Source: a virus. From it: a stretch of DNA of 35,851 bases. The notes below the pieces were generated by a model that was given only the letters and a program-made list of their open reading frames with translations, was not told the DNA's origin and did no database searches. The DNA is taken from positions 1 through 35,851 of the IMG/VR virus record IMGVR_UViG_3300030419_000739. One strand, given 5' to 3'. The translations under genes and the position numbers were made by a program. The first letter of the stretch is position 1; each line of letters begins with the position of its first letter. Shown here one piece after another: positions 17,821-31,915 of the stretch.

Positions 17821-19604
17821 TGTCATTTGAAGGTAGTAACTATGTAGGAGATTTAGCACTTTATTACGCTGCTAAAAAAATAGAATCAGGTGCAAATAAA
17901 AGTATTAAAGACATAATATCTCCAACAGAACTTTACAGACAAAGGACAGGTAGAGGTCGTGCAACAAAATTTAGTCAAGGTGAAATACTACAAGCACAAT
18001 ATTTAGCAGATCGTTTAGTAAATACAGCACAAGCAGAAACAAAACCAAGTGGTTATACAGAAAAAGATTTATTAAATAGTGTACAAAATGTTGCTAAAGA
18101 AATAGTAGAAGTAGAAAAACAGGTAGGTAAATTACAAGTACCACCTGAAGCAACAGGTGTACAAGAAGCACAAATATTTCAAAATGCTTTAGATGAGGTA
18201 ATGAAGAAAAGTGTTTTAAATACATTATCAGAAAGTGGACAGTTAGAAAGAGATACATTTCTAAACGCTTTAGGTTTTAATGATGTAGCAGAAGGACCTG
18301 GAATACCTGTAACAACCACAACAACAGATGAAATTACAGAAAAAGATTTAGTTATAGAAGAAGAAGATGATGAAATAGTTGAAGAAGAAGATGATGAAAT
18401 AGTTGAAGAAGATGGTAATGGACAAATAACAAATACAGCATTTACACAATTTAATAACATACCTGAAGATGCTTTACTTTTTGATGTAGGTGGTAATTTT
18501 TATATAGTATATGAAGTTCCTGGTTCAGATGGAGAACTATATGAAGGTAATCCAATTTATATGGCATATGAATTAAAAGATAATGATTTATTTGCAGCAG
18601 GTTTATTAACACAAGGTGAAACAGCACCACAACCCAATGCAACAATGGATCAATCATTTTTTGATTCTATTGCAATAGTTACAGGTAATACTGACCAACT
18701 ATCAGCATTAATAGATAATCCTTTTGCTAGTTTTGTAGAAACTGTAGGAGAACAATCACAAGTAGCACCTTGGATTACAGACCCAGAAATGATTGCATTA
18801 ATAGCTGAAGCTGCTGTAGAAGGTAGAGAAGTTACAGATGCAGAGTGGCAAACAACTAATTGGTATCAGACACACAATGAAACTGAAAGAGAGTGGTTAA
18901 GAACATATTACGCTGACCCATCAACAGCAACACAACTTACAACAGATGCACAAATATCAGTTGCTAACTCACTACAAGCAGCAGGTGTATCTAATGCACC
19001 AGAAGCATTGATTAATTGGGTTGCAGGTAAGTTTGTGTCTGGTGAATGGTCTGAAACATACACAGGAGAACAAATTAGTTTATTTGCTGACCCATATGCT
19101 ACAGGTAAAAGAGATGAAAGTTTTGAAAACTATTTATCTTCTACTGCTTTGACTGGTGTAGATAGAACAACAGAGAGAGAAAGAGAAGTTAGAGAGTTAT
19201 ACAGCAAATGGTTAGGACCATCATTAGGTAAGCTAACAGATAATGAAGTTGCAGAGATTGCAGGTAGATTACGAGATGACCCTGACTATCAAGACCAATT
19301 AGTACAATCGTTAAAACAATCACGACTTGCTGCGTTTAGTAATTACACTAATCCAGAACTAACTTATGAAGATATTGCAAGACCTTGGAGAAACTTAACA
19401 ACTTCTGTGTGGGGTCAGACAGCAGATGAAACACAAGGTTGGTGGCAAGATATGGTTAAATCTAATGACTTTACACAAGCACAAACTACACTTAGAGAGA
19501 AAGGTTTAGAGCAAGATATTACACAAGTTACACAAGATGCAACAAAAGCATTACAACAAGGATTAGGACAAGGCACAGTAAGTCAGTTAGGAGTTAATGT
19601 ATAA
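17820..19604 (+). CDS. Virion protein with acidic repeat, 594 aa
   Basis: A 594-residue protein of unknown family. Residues 1-140 are helical and Lys/Glu rich; a Thr run (VTTTTTDE) and an acidic tandem repeat (EEEDDEIV twice) follow near 170-200, then a folded region and a helical end (QDITQVTQDATKALQQ). The acidic hinge separates two domains. It is coupled to the lysozyme-like gene by TAATG and to the next gene by the same overlap. Probably an internal or ejected virion protein. Confidence 0.7.
   Translation: MSFEGSNYVGDLALYYAAKKIESGANKSIKDIISPTELYRQRTGRGRATKFSQGEILQAQYLADRLVNTAQAETKPSGYTEKDLLNSVQNVAKEIVEVEKQVGKLQVPPEATGVQEAQIFQNALDEVMKKSVLNTLSESGQLERDTFLNALGFNDVAEGPGIPVTTTTTDEITEKDLVIEEEDDEIVEEEDDEIVEEDGNGQITNTAFTQFNNIPEDALLFDVGGNFYIVYEVPGSDGELYEGNPIYMAYELKDNDLFAAGLLTQGETAPQPNATMDQSFFDSIAIVTGNTDQLSALIDNPFASFVETVGEQSQVAPWITDPEMIALIAEAAVEGREVTDAEWQTTNWYQTHNETEREWLRTYYADPSTATQLTTDAQISVANSLQAAGVSNAPEALINWVAGKFVSGEWSETYTGEQISLFADPYATGKRDESFENYLSSTALTGVDRTTEREREVRELYSKWLGPSLGKLTDNEVAEIAGRLRDDPDYQDQLVQSLKQSRLAAFSNYTNPELTYEDIARPWRNLTTSVWGQTADETQGWWQDMVKSNDFTQAQTTLREKGLEQDITQVTQDATKALQQGLGQGTVSQLGVNV
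18357..18404 (+). repeat. 24-bp tandem repeat, two full copies
   Basis: Two identical 24-base units (18357-18380 and 18381-18404) followed by a partial third encode EEEDDEIV-type repeats. Exact identity at the DNA level suggests recent slippage and a length-variable acidic hinge. Confidence 0.85.
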
Positions 19605-21146: not shown

Positions 21147-22085
21147 ATGGGTGCAGTATCAGGATTGGGAGATTCATACGATCTCCCTAATTACGTGGGT
21201 GAGTTATTTAATATAACTCCAAATGATACACCTTTTCTTTCTGCTATTGGTGGAATGACTGGGGGTAAATCAGTTACCTCTAAACAATTCACTTGGCAAA
21301 CAGTTGATAATGCAACAGCAGCTCAAACAGTAGTTGCTGAAGGTGCAGATGCAACTTTCGCAGAGAGAAGCAGATCTGAAGTAACAAACGTTACTCAAAT
21401 TATGCAATATGGTGTACACGTATCATATACAAAACAAGCAGCAACAGGAAACCTTGCTGGTCAATCTATACTAGGAAACCAACCAGTTCAAGATGAATTG
21501 GCTTTCCAATTAGATATGGCTATGAAGAGAGCAGCTAGAGATATAGAGTTCTCTTTCCTTAGAGGTACTTATGTTGCAGACACAGATGTAGCAACAGCTA
21601 GAAAAACAAGAGGTATGTTGTCAGCTATTTCTACTAACGAAGTAGCAGGTGGTAACGCAGCTCTTGACCAAGCAAAAGTAAATGCTTTGATGAAAGCTAT
21701 GGCAGATTCAGGAGCTCCATTTGAGCAACCTGTAATTATGGCTAACGCTTTTCAAAAGCAAAAACTATCTTCAATTTATTCAAGTGCATTGTCACTTGCA
21801 CCAAGAGATAGAAACTATGGTGGCGTAAATATACAAACTATAGAAACTGACTTTGGTGAAGTAGGAATTGTCTATAGCAGACACTTACCTGCTGAAGATA
21901 TAATTTGCGTTGATCTTGCTTATTGTAAGCCTGTATTCTTAGACATTCCTGGAAAAGGACACTTCTTCGCAGAACCACTTGCACAAACTGGTTCAGCTTA
22001 TAAGTTCCAAATCTATGGAGAGGTCGGATTAGAATATGGTCCAGAGCAATTCCACGGCAAAATTACATCACTATCTACTTCCTAA
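21147..22085 (+). CDS. Major capsid protein, SU10/DUF5309 family
   Basis: The 312-residue HK97-fold shell protein. I recognise the SU10-type family (DUF5309) from the start LPNYVGELFNITPNDTPFLS, the following FTWQTVDN and TNVTQIMQYGVHVSYTKQA, the helical AFQLDMAMKRAARDIEFSFL, and the later GGVNIQTIETDFGEVGIVYS and end (YGEVGLEYGPEQFHGK). No cleavable prohead domain is visible; the separate scaffold fits this. AAGGAG lies 8 bases upstream. A stable hairpin follows the gene, probably raising mRNA stability. Confidence 0.92.
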   Translation: MGAVSGLGDSYDLPNYVGELFNITPNDTPFLSAIGGMTGGKSVTSKQFTWQTVDNATAAQTVVAEGADATFAERSRSEVTNVTQIMQYGVHVSYTKQAATGNLAGQSILGNQPVQDELAFQLDMAMKRAARDIEFSFLRGTYVADTDVATARKTRGMLSAISTNEVAGGNAALDQAKVNALMKAMADSGAPFEQPVIMANAFQKQKLSSIYSSALSLAPRDRNYGGVNIQTIETDFGEVGIVYSRHLPAEDIICVDLAYCKPVFLDIPGKGHFFAEPLAQTGSAYKFQIYGEVGLEYGPEQFHGKITSLSTS

Positions 22086-28902: not shown

Positions 28903-29080
28903 CGGCAACGGCTTTACACAAAAAGAAATGTTGAATCTTATATTGGAAGGACAACAGGATATAAACAAACGCATAGATGAATTACACGAAAAGGTTAATC
29001 AAAAGATTTCAAGACAAGAACTAAGTGGGTGGCTTGTAGCTATCTCTGCGTTGGTGGTGCTTATAAATAACTTAATGTAA
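28889..29080 (+). CDS. Tail-anchored coiled-coil membrane protein, 63 aa
   Basis: The 63-residue protein (MTYPNGNGFTQKEMLNLILE ...) has a helical coiled-coil part (GQQDINKRIDELHEKVNQKI) and a C-terminal membrane segment (LSGWLVAISALVVLINNLM). This layout is like small BhlA/UviB-type holins and like accessory lysis proteins. GGAG precedes ATG 28889; extending the frame upstream would overlap the preceding gene. Its stop overlaps the next start (TAATG). Lysis role inferred. Confidence 0.6.
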   Translation: MTYPNGNGFTQKEMLNLILEGQQDINKRIDELHEKVNQKISRQELSGWLVAISALVVLINNLM

Positions 29081-31035
29081 TGTTTCGTTTGTTACTGTCT
29101 GTCCTTTTACTAATACCACTACCCTTACTCGCTAATGAAACAGAAGCTACTGTTACAGAAACATTTAACGATCAGCAGATAAACACAGATATAGATATAT
29201 TGTATGGTGGAAACGACACAGAAGTAACTGCTGCGACTACTGCATCTCCTGAATGTGCAAGTACAGAGGTAGCAGGAAGTATAGGCATAGAAGATTTAGA
29301 TTGTTTTGGTTCAGAATACTTTAGTCTAAACAGACACGCATTAGGTATAAGAGGTAGTGGCGATAGTATCACTATTGCATTTCCTAATGAACCATACGAA
29401 GTAGGTTTTCAATATGGTGCTACAGATGTAGATACTATATCAGGTACTGTGTACTACGACAATGGTGCATCTGAAACATTTACACTAGACCAACACACAG
29501 ATTACACAACTGTATTGTCTAAGTCCTGGACAGTTGCAGAAGGTGTAGATACTTTTATTACAGAGATAGTTATTAATGGATTGACAGGAGAAAACCCTGA
29601 CTGGTACTTGATAGATAATATATACTATAAGTATGATAATGTACCTACTACAACGACATCTAGTACGACAACAACTACCACCACAACAACGACTACTACC
29701 ACGACTACAACGCTACCTAAAGCAGAAGATGTCGTGGAAGATGGTATTACTACCTATCTTGCTTGGGATAAAAATGGTTGTGAACACCCTAATAACCCAC
29801 TTTCGTACAAACAATACCTTGAAGCAGTAGAAAGTGGAGATTGGTTTGGTTATCAAAGTGGTGATTGCTCTGTTATACCTGATGTTGTTACTATTGTTAT
29901 CGCAGAGGAAGAACAGGAGATAGAAGAAGATGAAATACTTGAAGAAGATATGGAACTTGATGGACTTGATGATCTGGAATTACCAGAGGAAGAAGTCATT
30001 GAGGAACTTAGTGAAGAAGAAATAGCTGCAATAGAAGCAGAGATAAAAGCAGAAGAAGAAAAGCTAATCCAAGAACAGCTTGATGCTGAAGAAGAAATAC
30101 TTATACTAGAAGAACTAGAAGATAGTGTAATCATACTAGAAGATTTAACAGAGGAAGAACTAGAAGAATTTGTAGATGTTATACAAGAAATAGAAGATAC
30201 TATTGAAATTATAGAGATTATAGAGGAAGTCATAGAGTTAGACATACCTGAAGATATAATTGTAATAGAGATAGAGGAAGATGAGGTTATAGAAGATGAC
30301 ATTGTTATTGTGGTGGAAGATGAAGAAGTTGATGAGGAAGTTTTGGTTGAGCCAGTACAGGAAGATGTTGAGGAGAAACCTAGAGAAGAACTTTCTAAGG
30401 AAGAAATCGTTGAAGAACTTGTTGAAGTTGAAGAAGTCATTGAGGAAATTATAGAGATAGAGATTGTTGAAGAAGATTTAACAGAGGAAGAAATAGAAGA
30501 AGTTATTGAGGAGTATGTAGAGGAACTAGAAACAGAGGAAGTTATAGAAGTTCTTGAAGAAGTCAATGATGTTGGTGTACAGAATTTAGAAGAAGTGTCA
30601 GAAGAAGTCCAGGAAGTTATCCAGGCAGTAGTAGAGGAAGCTATAGAAGATGTTGAAGAACTTACAGAGGAACAGGTAGAAGTTGTAGCAGAAGTATTAC
30701 AGGTAGAAACAGAAGATGTTGAGATTATTGCTGAAGCTGTAAAAGAAGATGAGGTGGTAGCAGAGGCAGTAGAAGAATATGTAGAGAGAGCAGTAGAGAA
30801 CGCTAATGTAGAGGATTACACACTTGCTGATGTTGTTACAGAGGTACAGTATGAAGCATTTTTAGAAAATCCAATAGAAGTATTAGTAGATTTTGACAAT
30901 ATAACAGAGATAAATATATCAAACATATCTAATGATATGACACAAGATCAGAAAGAAAAAGCACAGGAAGTCGTAGTTCCTGTAATCTTGACTAGAATAG
31001 CTAGTATGGCTGCGTTTATATTTAGGAGAAGCTAA
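29080..31035 (+). CDS. Exported poly-Thr/Glu-rich surface protein, 651 aa
   Basis: It begins with a signal peptide (MFRLLLSVLLLIPLPLLANE). Residues 20-185 are a folded beta-rich domain with several Cys (SPECASTEVAGSIGIEDLDC; YEVGFQYGATDVD). A linker of almost unbroken threonine (about 190-212) leads to a small Cys/Trp domain (TYLAWDKNGCEHP ... YQSGDC). Residues 270-620 are extremely rich in Glu, Val and Ile (repeats such as EEVIEEIIEIE). A C-terminal hydrophobic segment ending RIASMAAFIFRRS could anchor it in the membrane. Poly-Thr linkers before small domains are common in actinobacterial surface proteins. A virus-encoded envelope protein of the infected cell is the likely product; attachment, immunity or lysis control are all possible. 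Confidence 0.65.
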   Translation: MFRLLLSVLLLIPLPLLANETEATVTETFNDQQINTDIDILYGGNDTEVTAATTASPECASTEVAGSIGIEDLDCFGSEYFSLNRHALGIRGSGDSITIAFPNEPYEVGFQYGATDVDTISGTVYYDNGASETFTLDQHTDYTTVLSKSWTVAEGVDTFITEIVINGLTGENPDWYLIDNIYYKYDNVPTTTTSSTTTTTTTTTTTTTTTTLPKAEDVVEDGITTYLAWDKNGCEHPNNPLSYKQYLEAVESGDWFGYQSGDCSVIPDVVTIVIAEEEQEIEEDEILEEDMELDGLDDLELPEEEVIEELSEEEIAAIEAEIKAEEEKLIQEQLDAEEEILILEELEDSVIILEDLTEEELEEFVDVIQEIEDTIEIIEIIEEVIELDIPEDIIVIEIEEDEVIEDDIVIVVEDEEVDEEVLVEPVQEDVEEKPREELSKEEIVEELVEVEEVIEEIIEIEIVEEDLTEEEIEEVIEEYVEELETEEVIEVLEEVNDVGVQNLEEVSEEVQEVIQAVVEEAIEDVEELTEEQVEVVAEVLQVETEDVEIIAEAVKEDEVVAEAVEEYVERAVENANVEDYTLADVVTEVQYEAFLENPIEVLVDFDNITEINISNISNDMTQDQKEKAQEVVVPVILTRIASMAAFIFRRS

Positions 31036-31223
31036 TGATTAAGAAATTATGGTCTTGGTTTGTACAAGCAATTAAAGAAACACTAAATCTTAGTTGGACT
31101 TTAGTTGGTTTAGTTATTGCAACACTTACACTAACTGGTTCTGCCCAGCAAATCACAGGTTTAGCGACTATAATTACTTTAGGCATATGGTTATTGACCA
31201 TAGGTTTTAGAAAAGGAGAGTAA
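31035..31223 (+). CDS. Two-helix membrane protein, holin-like, 62 aa
   Basis: The 62-residue protein starts MIKKLWSWFVQAIKETLNL and has two hydrophobic segments (SWTLVGLVIATLTLTG and ITGLATIITLGIWLLTIGF), then a short basic end RKGE. Length and topology fit a small holin or antiholin; the region also has a second holin at 31915. Coupled by TAATG to the large exported protein. Its last codons carry the AAAGGAG of the next micropeptide. Confidence 0.6.
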   Translation: MIKKLWSWFVQAIKETLNLSWTLVGLVIATLTLTGSAQQITGLATIITLGIWLLTIGFRKGE

Positions 31224-31224
31224 T

Positions 31225-31263
31225 ATGGACTGCTGTGGTAGTGGTTGCTGTGGTGGTAAGTAA
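31225..31263 (+). CDS. Cys-rich micropeptide, 12 aa
   Basis: MDCCGSGCCGGK: 12 residues with two vicinal Cys pairs. AAAGGAG lies 5-6 bases upstream of the ATG, one of the best ribosome-binding sites in the window. Its TAA shares a base with the next ATG. Translation is likely; the paired Cys suggest metal binding, disulfides or lipidation. No homologue known to me. Confidence 0.5.
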   Translation: MDCCGSGCCGGK

Positions 31264-31328
31264 TGTGTAAGTGCAACTATCTTTGTTGTGGTTGCAATTT
31301 GCATTGTAGTAACTGGGAGATTATATGA
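31263..31328 (+). CDS. Cys-rich micropeptide, 21 aa
   Basis: A 21-residue frame with six Cys (CKC, CCGC and a later HC; C-terminus SNWEII). It starts on the last base of the previous stop (TAATG) and its TGA overlaps the next ATG (ATGA), so both ends are coupled. Two consecutive Cys-rich micropeptides with perfect coupling are unlikely by chance. Function unknown. Confidence 0.5.
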   Translation: MCKCNYLCCGCNLHCSNWEII

Positions 31329-31915
31329 AATTACAAGTAGTTAGAACACAGTTTGGTACTGATGCAACAAATGGTTTGTTGTTTGTAAATGGTTTATTTG
31401 AGTGTTATACATTAGAGGATCAATACCAAGCAGTAAAAGTTATGCACGAAACCTGCATACCTGAAGGTAAATACGATATAAAATTTAGAACTGTTGGTGG
31501 TTTCCACGAGAAATACAAGAAAAGATATGGTGCAGACCATTATGGTATGTTGCATTTACAAGATGTACCTAACTTTACTTATATACTTATACACGCAGGT
31601 AACACAGATGAACACACATCAGGTTGTTTAATTGTAGGAGAAACACAACAAGATTTAGACCTAAGTGATGATGGATTTATAGGTCATAGTGGCGTAGCAT
31701 ACTCAAAATTATATAAAAAAGTAGCAAAAGAATTATTGTTAGGAAAGAGTGTAACAATAGAGTACACAACAATAACTAAATTATTAGAGAAACCTTTAGA
31801 GGAAGCCTCTAGTACAGACATAGGTGTTGCTAAAGATGTTATGGAGAAATTGCAAGAGATTAATGGTAATGTCATACAGACACAGACTATGTTGAGAGGT
31901 AGGATAATTAGATAA
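31325..31915 (+). CDS. DUF5675 protein, candidate endolysin-like enzyme, 196 aa
   Basis: I recognise the DUF5675 domain in residues 1-130: KLQVVRTQFGTDATNGLLFV, CYTLEDQ, CIPEGKYDI, MLHLQDVPNFTYILIHAGN and TSGCLIVGE. His and Cys in IHAGN ... SGCLIVG resemble the His/Cys pair of YkuD-type L,D-transpeptidases, which act on peptidoglycan, but this similarity is my inference. The C-terminal 60 residues are helical (DVMEKLQEINGNVIQTQTML). The place beside holins makes it the best candidate for a cell-wall enzyme. ATGA overlap with the micropeptide before and TAATG with the holin after. Confidence 0.7.
   Translation: MKLQVVRTQFGTDATNGLLFVNGLFECYTLEDQYQAVKVMHETCIPEGKYDIKFRTVGGFHEKYKKRYGADHYGMLHLQDVPNFTYILIHAGNTDEHTSGCLIVGETQQDLDLSDDGFIGHSGVAYSKLYKKVAKELLLGKSVTIEYTTITKLLEKPLEEASSTDIGVAKDVMEKLQEINGNVIQTQTMLRGRIIR

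Follow-up and report, generated by a model that had tools for sequence, protein, structure and literature searches.

A conserved 12-residue cysteine-rich micropeptide gene among the late genes of phages with likely marine actinobacterial hosts

The described systems closest to the phage micropeptide reported here (micropeptide 1, 12 residues) are small metal-binding peptides, Cys-codon leader peptides and conotoxins. With bacterial metallothioneins and other small Cys-rich metal-binding peptides, micropeptide 1 shares a very high Cys content, pairing of the Cys residues, the lack of a hydrophobic core and a presumably cytosolic location, but it contains only four Cys residues, is encoded by a phage, shows no detectable sequence relation to these peptides and is, to our knowledge, far shorter than any of them; its metal binding is putative. 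Actinobacteria are known to have Cys-responsive leader peptides, which micropeptide 1 resembles in the brevity of its ORF, the adjacency of its Cys codons, a translationally close next gene and a likely actinobacterial host. Unlike these leaders, micropeptide 1 lies inside operons and before unrelated genes, its Gly residues are conserved as strongly as its Cys residues, and no attenuator structure accompanies it. The T-superfamily conotoxins, which are CC-CC two-disulfide mini-scaffolds, also hold two Cys pairs within 10-13 residues; this is an analogy of spacing only, and the phage peptide is unrelated to them, has no secretion signal or propeptide and would be a cytosolic phage product. The phage small proteins reviewed in PMC11323111 are dozens of residues long in the examples given there, and the word "cysteine" is absent from the text; micropeptide 1 is likewise phage-encoded but comprises 12 residues only.

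The window, that is, the whole stretch of DNA analysed, covers positions 1 to 35,851 (35,851 nucleotides) of the IMG/VR virus record IMGVR_UViG_3300030419_000739. The features of the locus are the following:

31035..31223, plus strand: holin-like protein of 62 amino acids with two transmembrane segments (from the ORF list; function by resemblance only)
31211..31219, plus strand: Shine-Dalgarno region AAAAGGAGA of micropeptide 1 (from the sequence)
31225..31263, plus strand: micropeptide 1, MDCCGSGCCGGK, 12 codons and TAA (sequence, in-frame purifying selection, many gene contexts)
31231..31257, plus strand: invariant core of micropeptide 1, CCGxGCCGG, nine codons (34 distinct DNA versions)
31263..31328, plus strand: micropeptide 2, MCKCNYLCCGCNLHCSNWEII, 21 codons and TGA (start in a TAATG overlap; 12 versions with in-frame selection)
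31325..31915, plus strand: DUF5675 protein, PF18925 (Pfam E 7.5e-30; PHROG 1501), in ATGA overlap with micropeptide 2

Re-reading of the sequence and of the ORF list placed both micropeptide frames between the holin-like gene and DUF5675, as the earlier note had reported. Micropeptide 1 (ATG at 31225, TAA at 31261-31263) has four Cys among 12 residues, and micropeptide 2 (ATG at 31263, TGA at 31326-31328) has six among 21. The near-perfect Shine-Dalgarno claimed for micropeptide 1 was found upstream of its ATG (AAAAGGAGAGTAAT), and an SD-like sequence is present in 61 of 67 relatives. Tight overlaps had been claimed for all three junctions and were found at two of them: micropeptide 2 overlaps micropeptide 1 by one base (TAATG) and DUF5675 by four (ATGA, 31325-31328), but the TAA of the holin-like gene (31221-31223) is separated from the ATG of micropeptide 1 by a 1-base gap. 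The holin-like protein had no match in Pfam or PHROG; its gene is a conserved neighbour of the micropeptides in their IMG/VR relatives.

Short Cys-rich frames are frequent on the antisense strand of the window (e.g., MCICCKLCCC at 18953, minus strand), so Cys density alone is weak evidence, was rejected as proof of coding, and makes a comparative test necessary. The test loci were obtained from two IMG/VR scans by neighbouring proteins and were chosen blind to the micropeptides; these virus records are often fragments, and locus counts apply to the matches listed and are not estimates of frequency. Among these matches, a relative of micropeptide 1 was present in 67 of 96 distinct holin-DUF5675 intervals. 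For the nine core codons, pN/pS, taken as a simple pairwise count uncorrected for relatedness, was 0.095 in the reading frame of the peptide, compared with 2.77 and 0.37 when the frame was shifted. Third positions vary at all nine codons of the 34 distinct DNA versions, and outside the variable fourth codon only three amino-acid changes occur, all of them singletons. All four Cys residues are kept in six of the seven core peptide versions, the CC-x3-CC spacing is retained by nearly all versions (a rare exception being MDCCGSGRCGGK in L080), and the core conserves Gly 3, 5, 8 and 9 as amino acids, with codons varying freely. Shuffles of the window gave an expectation of 0.00 for the motif. Stops or a loss of conservation in relatives had been named as signs against these frames; the frame of micropeptide 1 proved to be conserved, and for micropeptide 2 the result was divided, its own sequence being kept in one subgroup and most relatives carrying a different Cys-rich peptide at that place.

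On these comparisons of sequence, micropeptide 1 is a real protein-coding micro-gene of a well-supported family, and the conserved entity is its amino-acid pattern and not an RNA. An RNA element was rejected on the grounds of free third positions, a weak fold (z -1.35, not unusual) and the lack of an Rfam match for the micropeptide region. The family pattern, M(D/E)CCGxGCCGG(polar), extends over 11-15 residues and comprises four Cys, four Gly, an acidic residue ahead of these, one free polar position and a polar end; as no hydrophobic residue occurs, insertion into the membrane is unlikely. A peptide of 12 residues is below the 20-residue minimum of profile searches and too short for a fold, and that length allows neither E-values nor trees. 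Searches against named phages, limited by the low-complexity filter, returned no match for the micropeptides; Pontimonas phage phiPsal1 likewise gave none, nor did Mycobacterium phage Mendokysei give one as a micro-ORF, and nothing on CCGSGCC or MDCCG peptides was found in open-licence papers. No family, RNA element, fold or paper that was found accounts for micropeptide 1, and it is apparently an undescribed gene.

The gene contexts, collected by a motif scan and from the earlier loci, number at least 130 distinct ones in which M..CCGxGCCGG.. stands as a free ORF with a start, a stop and usually a ribosome-binding site. The slot between the holin-like gene and DUF5675 is the commonest place (79 of the at least 130 contexts among the matches listed), and in most listed contexts a holin-like or other membrane protein is encoded upstream and DUF5675 downstream. 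In one record (L200), an amidase-like gene replaces DUF5675 behind micropeptide 1; in other contexts, the downstream gene is one that we take to be DUF6321-like. The micropeptide also lies between the tail terminator and tail tube genes (L212, L237, L251), and a variant, MECCGHGCCNGG, with a strong ribosome-binding site, precedes a Glu-rich gene (L096:1095, L101:1008, L129, L140, L142, L158); records without a micropeptide at the holin site can carry MECCGHGCCNGG elsewhere, before the Glu-rich gene. The genes downstream of micropeptide 1 in the contexts listed fall into many unrelated clusters, and every context found is located among late structural or tail-end genes. The Glu-rich gene of the window (29080-31035) encodes a 651-residue protein with a signal-like start, a poly-Thr linker and a very long Glu-rich region, for which Pfam gave no match.

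Micropeptide 1 is single-copy in nearly every record, with two matches in G016, and in a search left open to any CC-x3-CC ORF behind a ribosome-binding site, CCGxGCC was the stand-alone family that recurred. Some complete-looking relatives have no motif at all, so micropeptide 1 is not essential to this phage type. With the strict pattern, 84,980 bacterial and archaeal species genomes gave one match, on a phage-like contig (L279) in an Actinomycetota MAG; in the collections searched, the family is restricted to phages. This match, together with a capsid protein (21147-22085 of the window) that is 48% identical to those of Mycobacterium phages Mendokysei and Bernal13 and a tail terminator of the tail-type contexts that is closest to Pontimonas and Rhodococcus phages, suggests that the host likely belongs to marine Actinobacteria. 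The G+C content of the window, 34%, fits phages reported from Candidatus Actinomarinales (PMC7771536); WhiB, sought as a host marker, was found in none of 25 records.

The second slot behaves differently from the first. For the 12 distinct versions of micropeptide 2 itself, pN/pS was 0.25 in frame against 2.08 and 0.72 out of frame. Most relatives carry there a peptide of the pattern C-x13-C-x-C-K, whose 67 versions gave 0.39 against 0.90 and 0.91, the in-frame value being biased by collection of the set according to the Cys pattern. In six further loci (L022, L038, L043, L056, L064, L071), a Cys-rich peptide of the MICGLCSGSCATCP type replaces both micropeptides between the holin-like gene and DUF5675. 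Since different phages carry different Cys-rich peptides at this position, the second slot is a place for replaceable ones; comparison of the frames shows that it is coding and that selection keeps Cys-rich peptides in it. The slot-2 peptides (21-29 residues) had no significant Pfam match, and their best PHROG match was PHROG 26807, function unknown, with E 0.0027 for one form. Micropeptide 2 contains a terminator-like hairpin that, by inspection, is lost in L171, a locus that keeps the peptide.

In many relatives (L012, L017, L023, L024, L094 and others), the slot-2 peptide lies in the +1 frame without an ATG, and the closest start codon is a GTG inside micropeptide 1, which is preserved by TGT as the fourth Cys codon; the N-terminal extensions of the slot-2 relatives vary in length. 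All 24 of 24 distinct sequences in this class use TGT for the fourth Cys, whereas only 43 of the 66 others do (Fisher p 0.0003, relatedness being ignored). On account of the +1 frame, a frameshift fusion of micropeptides 1 and 2 was considered; it was set aside because, given this TGT bias, the nested GTG start fits better.

For micropeptide 1, we tentatively favour the function of a diffusible late micropeptide whose four Cys residues would bind a soft metal ion or carry out thiol/disulfide chemistry. Its own strong ribosome-binding site would direct translation late in infection, and the product would act as a free peptide, in which the two Cys pairs, with a flexible Gly-x-Gly linker between them, may coordinate a single soft metal ion (Zn, Cu(I)) or a small cluster of metal; alternatively, the pairs may cycle between thiol and disulfide or form two disulfides. 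Metal or thiols would thus be buffered during virion assembly and cell dismantling. Such a peptide would require no fixed partner gene, which would explain its several unrelated sites in the late gene block; its changing position within the late genes speaks against a constant protein partner encoded beside it. Micropeptide 2, as a member of the replaceable slot, probably serves related chemistry. Metal or thiol chemistry at the membrane had been proposed from the sequence alone: such chemistry is what CCGxGCCGG most naturally suggests, but the membrane site is unsupported given the tail-gene and Glu-rich contexts. The translation level, the metal or thiol binding and the purpose of micropeptide 1 are what we infer here, and its paired Cys residues might have some other use.

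A rival role, which we consider unlikely, is that of a virion or assembly component built into the tail or tail end, or stapling it, via metal or disulfide bonds. The location of all contexts found among late structural or tail-end genes, with the tail tube gene directly adjoining in three of them (L212, L237, L251), is consistent with this role, but the same peptide accompanies quite different capsid proteins (identities from 88% down to 29%, or none), and the variable neighbour leaves no fixed structural partner visible. Quite unlikely is a Cys-codon leader peptide, at whose paired Cys codons ribosomes would slow and so set the translation of the next gene, as might be suggested by a next gene that in most contexts is tightly coupled (TAATG or short gaps); here, the equal conservation of Gly, the use of all its codons, the lack of room for an attenuator inside an operon, the missing Rfam match, the absence of unusual folding and a downstream gene that varies widely, with no constant Cys-related target, argue against it.

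Less likely still is a peptide that, with the holin-like protein, times lysis or inhibits DUF5675 and its conserved Cys. The prevalence of the holin-like/DUF5675 slot among the contexts listed, the invariant His90 and Gly100-Cys101 of DUF5675 and its replacement by an amidase-like gene in one record favour this assignment, but no PDB fold matches DUF5675 (the AlphaFold model, mean pLDDT 76, returned noise only), and in the 36.6-kb record G033 the micropeptide is present and DUF5675 was not found. Lysis timing, one of the roles offered in the earlier note, is not supported in view of the occurrences at tail terminator/tail tube genes and before the Glu-rich gene, away from the holin-DUF5675 pair. 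Toxin-like activity, a further role offered there, gained neither support nor contrary evidence. The role of DUF5675 as a lysis enzyme is itself putative and unproven; its His90 and Gly100-Cys101 loosely resemble an L,D-transpeptidase motif.

That micropeptide 1 gives rise to a bioactive peptide, modified or disulfide-linked, that is freed at lysis is very improbable: the CC-CC spacing in so short a peptide recalls two-disulfide mini-scaffolds, but neither a signal sequence nor a leader region nor an adjacent modifying enzyme was seen in the contexts read. A chance open frame without a product, for which the abundance of short Cys-rich frames in the window might speak, has almost no probability and was rejected in view of the strong in-frame selection (0.095 and 0.25), the zero expectation from shuffling, the ribosome-binding sites and the many independent contexts.

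A second, unrelated micro-ORF of 11 residues, M(K/N)C(D/E)CC(N/S)C(T/N)CC, with a ribosome-binding site, was observed in seven other marine contigs of 30-34% G+C (L304:2526 on the minus strand, L335, L411:7573, L420, L421:11468, L439 and L456:2056). Because the search pattern itself set where the Cys residues stand, the evidence for this family comes from the remaining residues, from the ribosome-binding site and from the neighbouring genes; in several contigs, an outer-membrane-protein-like gene lies upstream and a membrane/coiled-coil protein is encoded downstream. It is possible, though more doubtful than the function favoured for micropeptide 1, that different marine phage lineages independently keep 11-12 residue micro-genes with a Cys tetrad or hexad (CCGxGCCGG, CxCCxCxCC) as free late metal/thiol reagents, undescribed and too short for standard gene callers.

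Annotation normally drops genes of a dozen codons. Micropeptide 1 is conserved as a peptide, is mobile within the late operon and occurs widely in the phages of marine bacteria that are abundant and uncultured; it suggests that Cys-rich phage micropeptides form a hidden class. Should its binding of metal or thiols be confirmed, phage infection would be tied to the way in which streamlined marine cells handle metal or sulfur.
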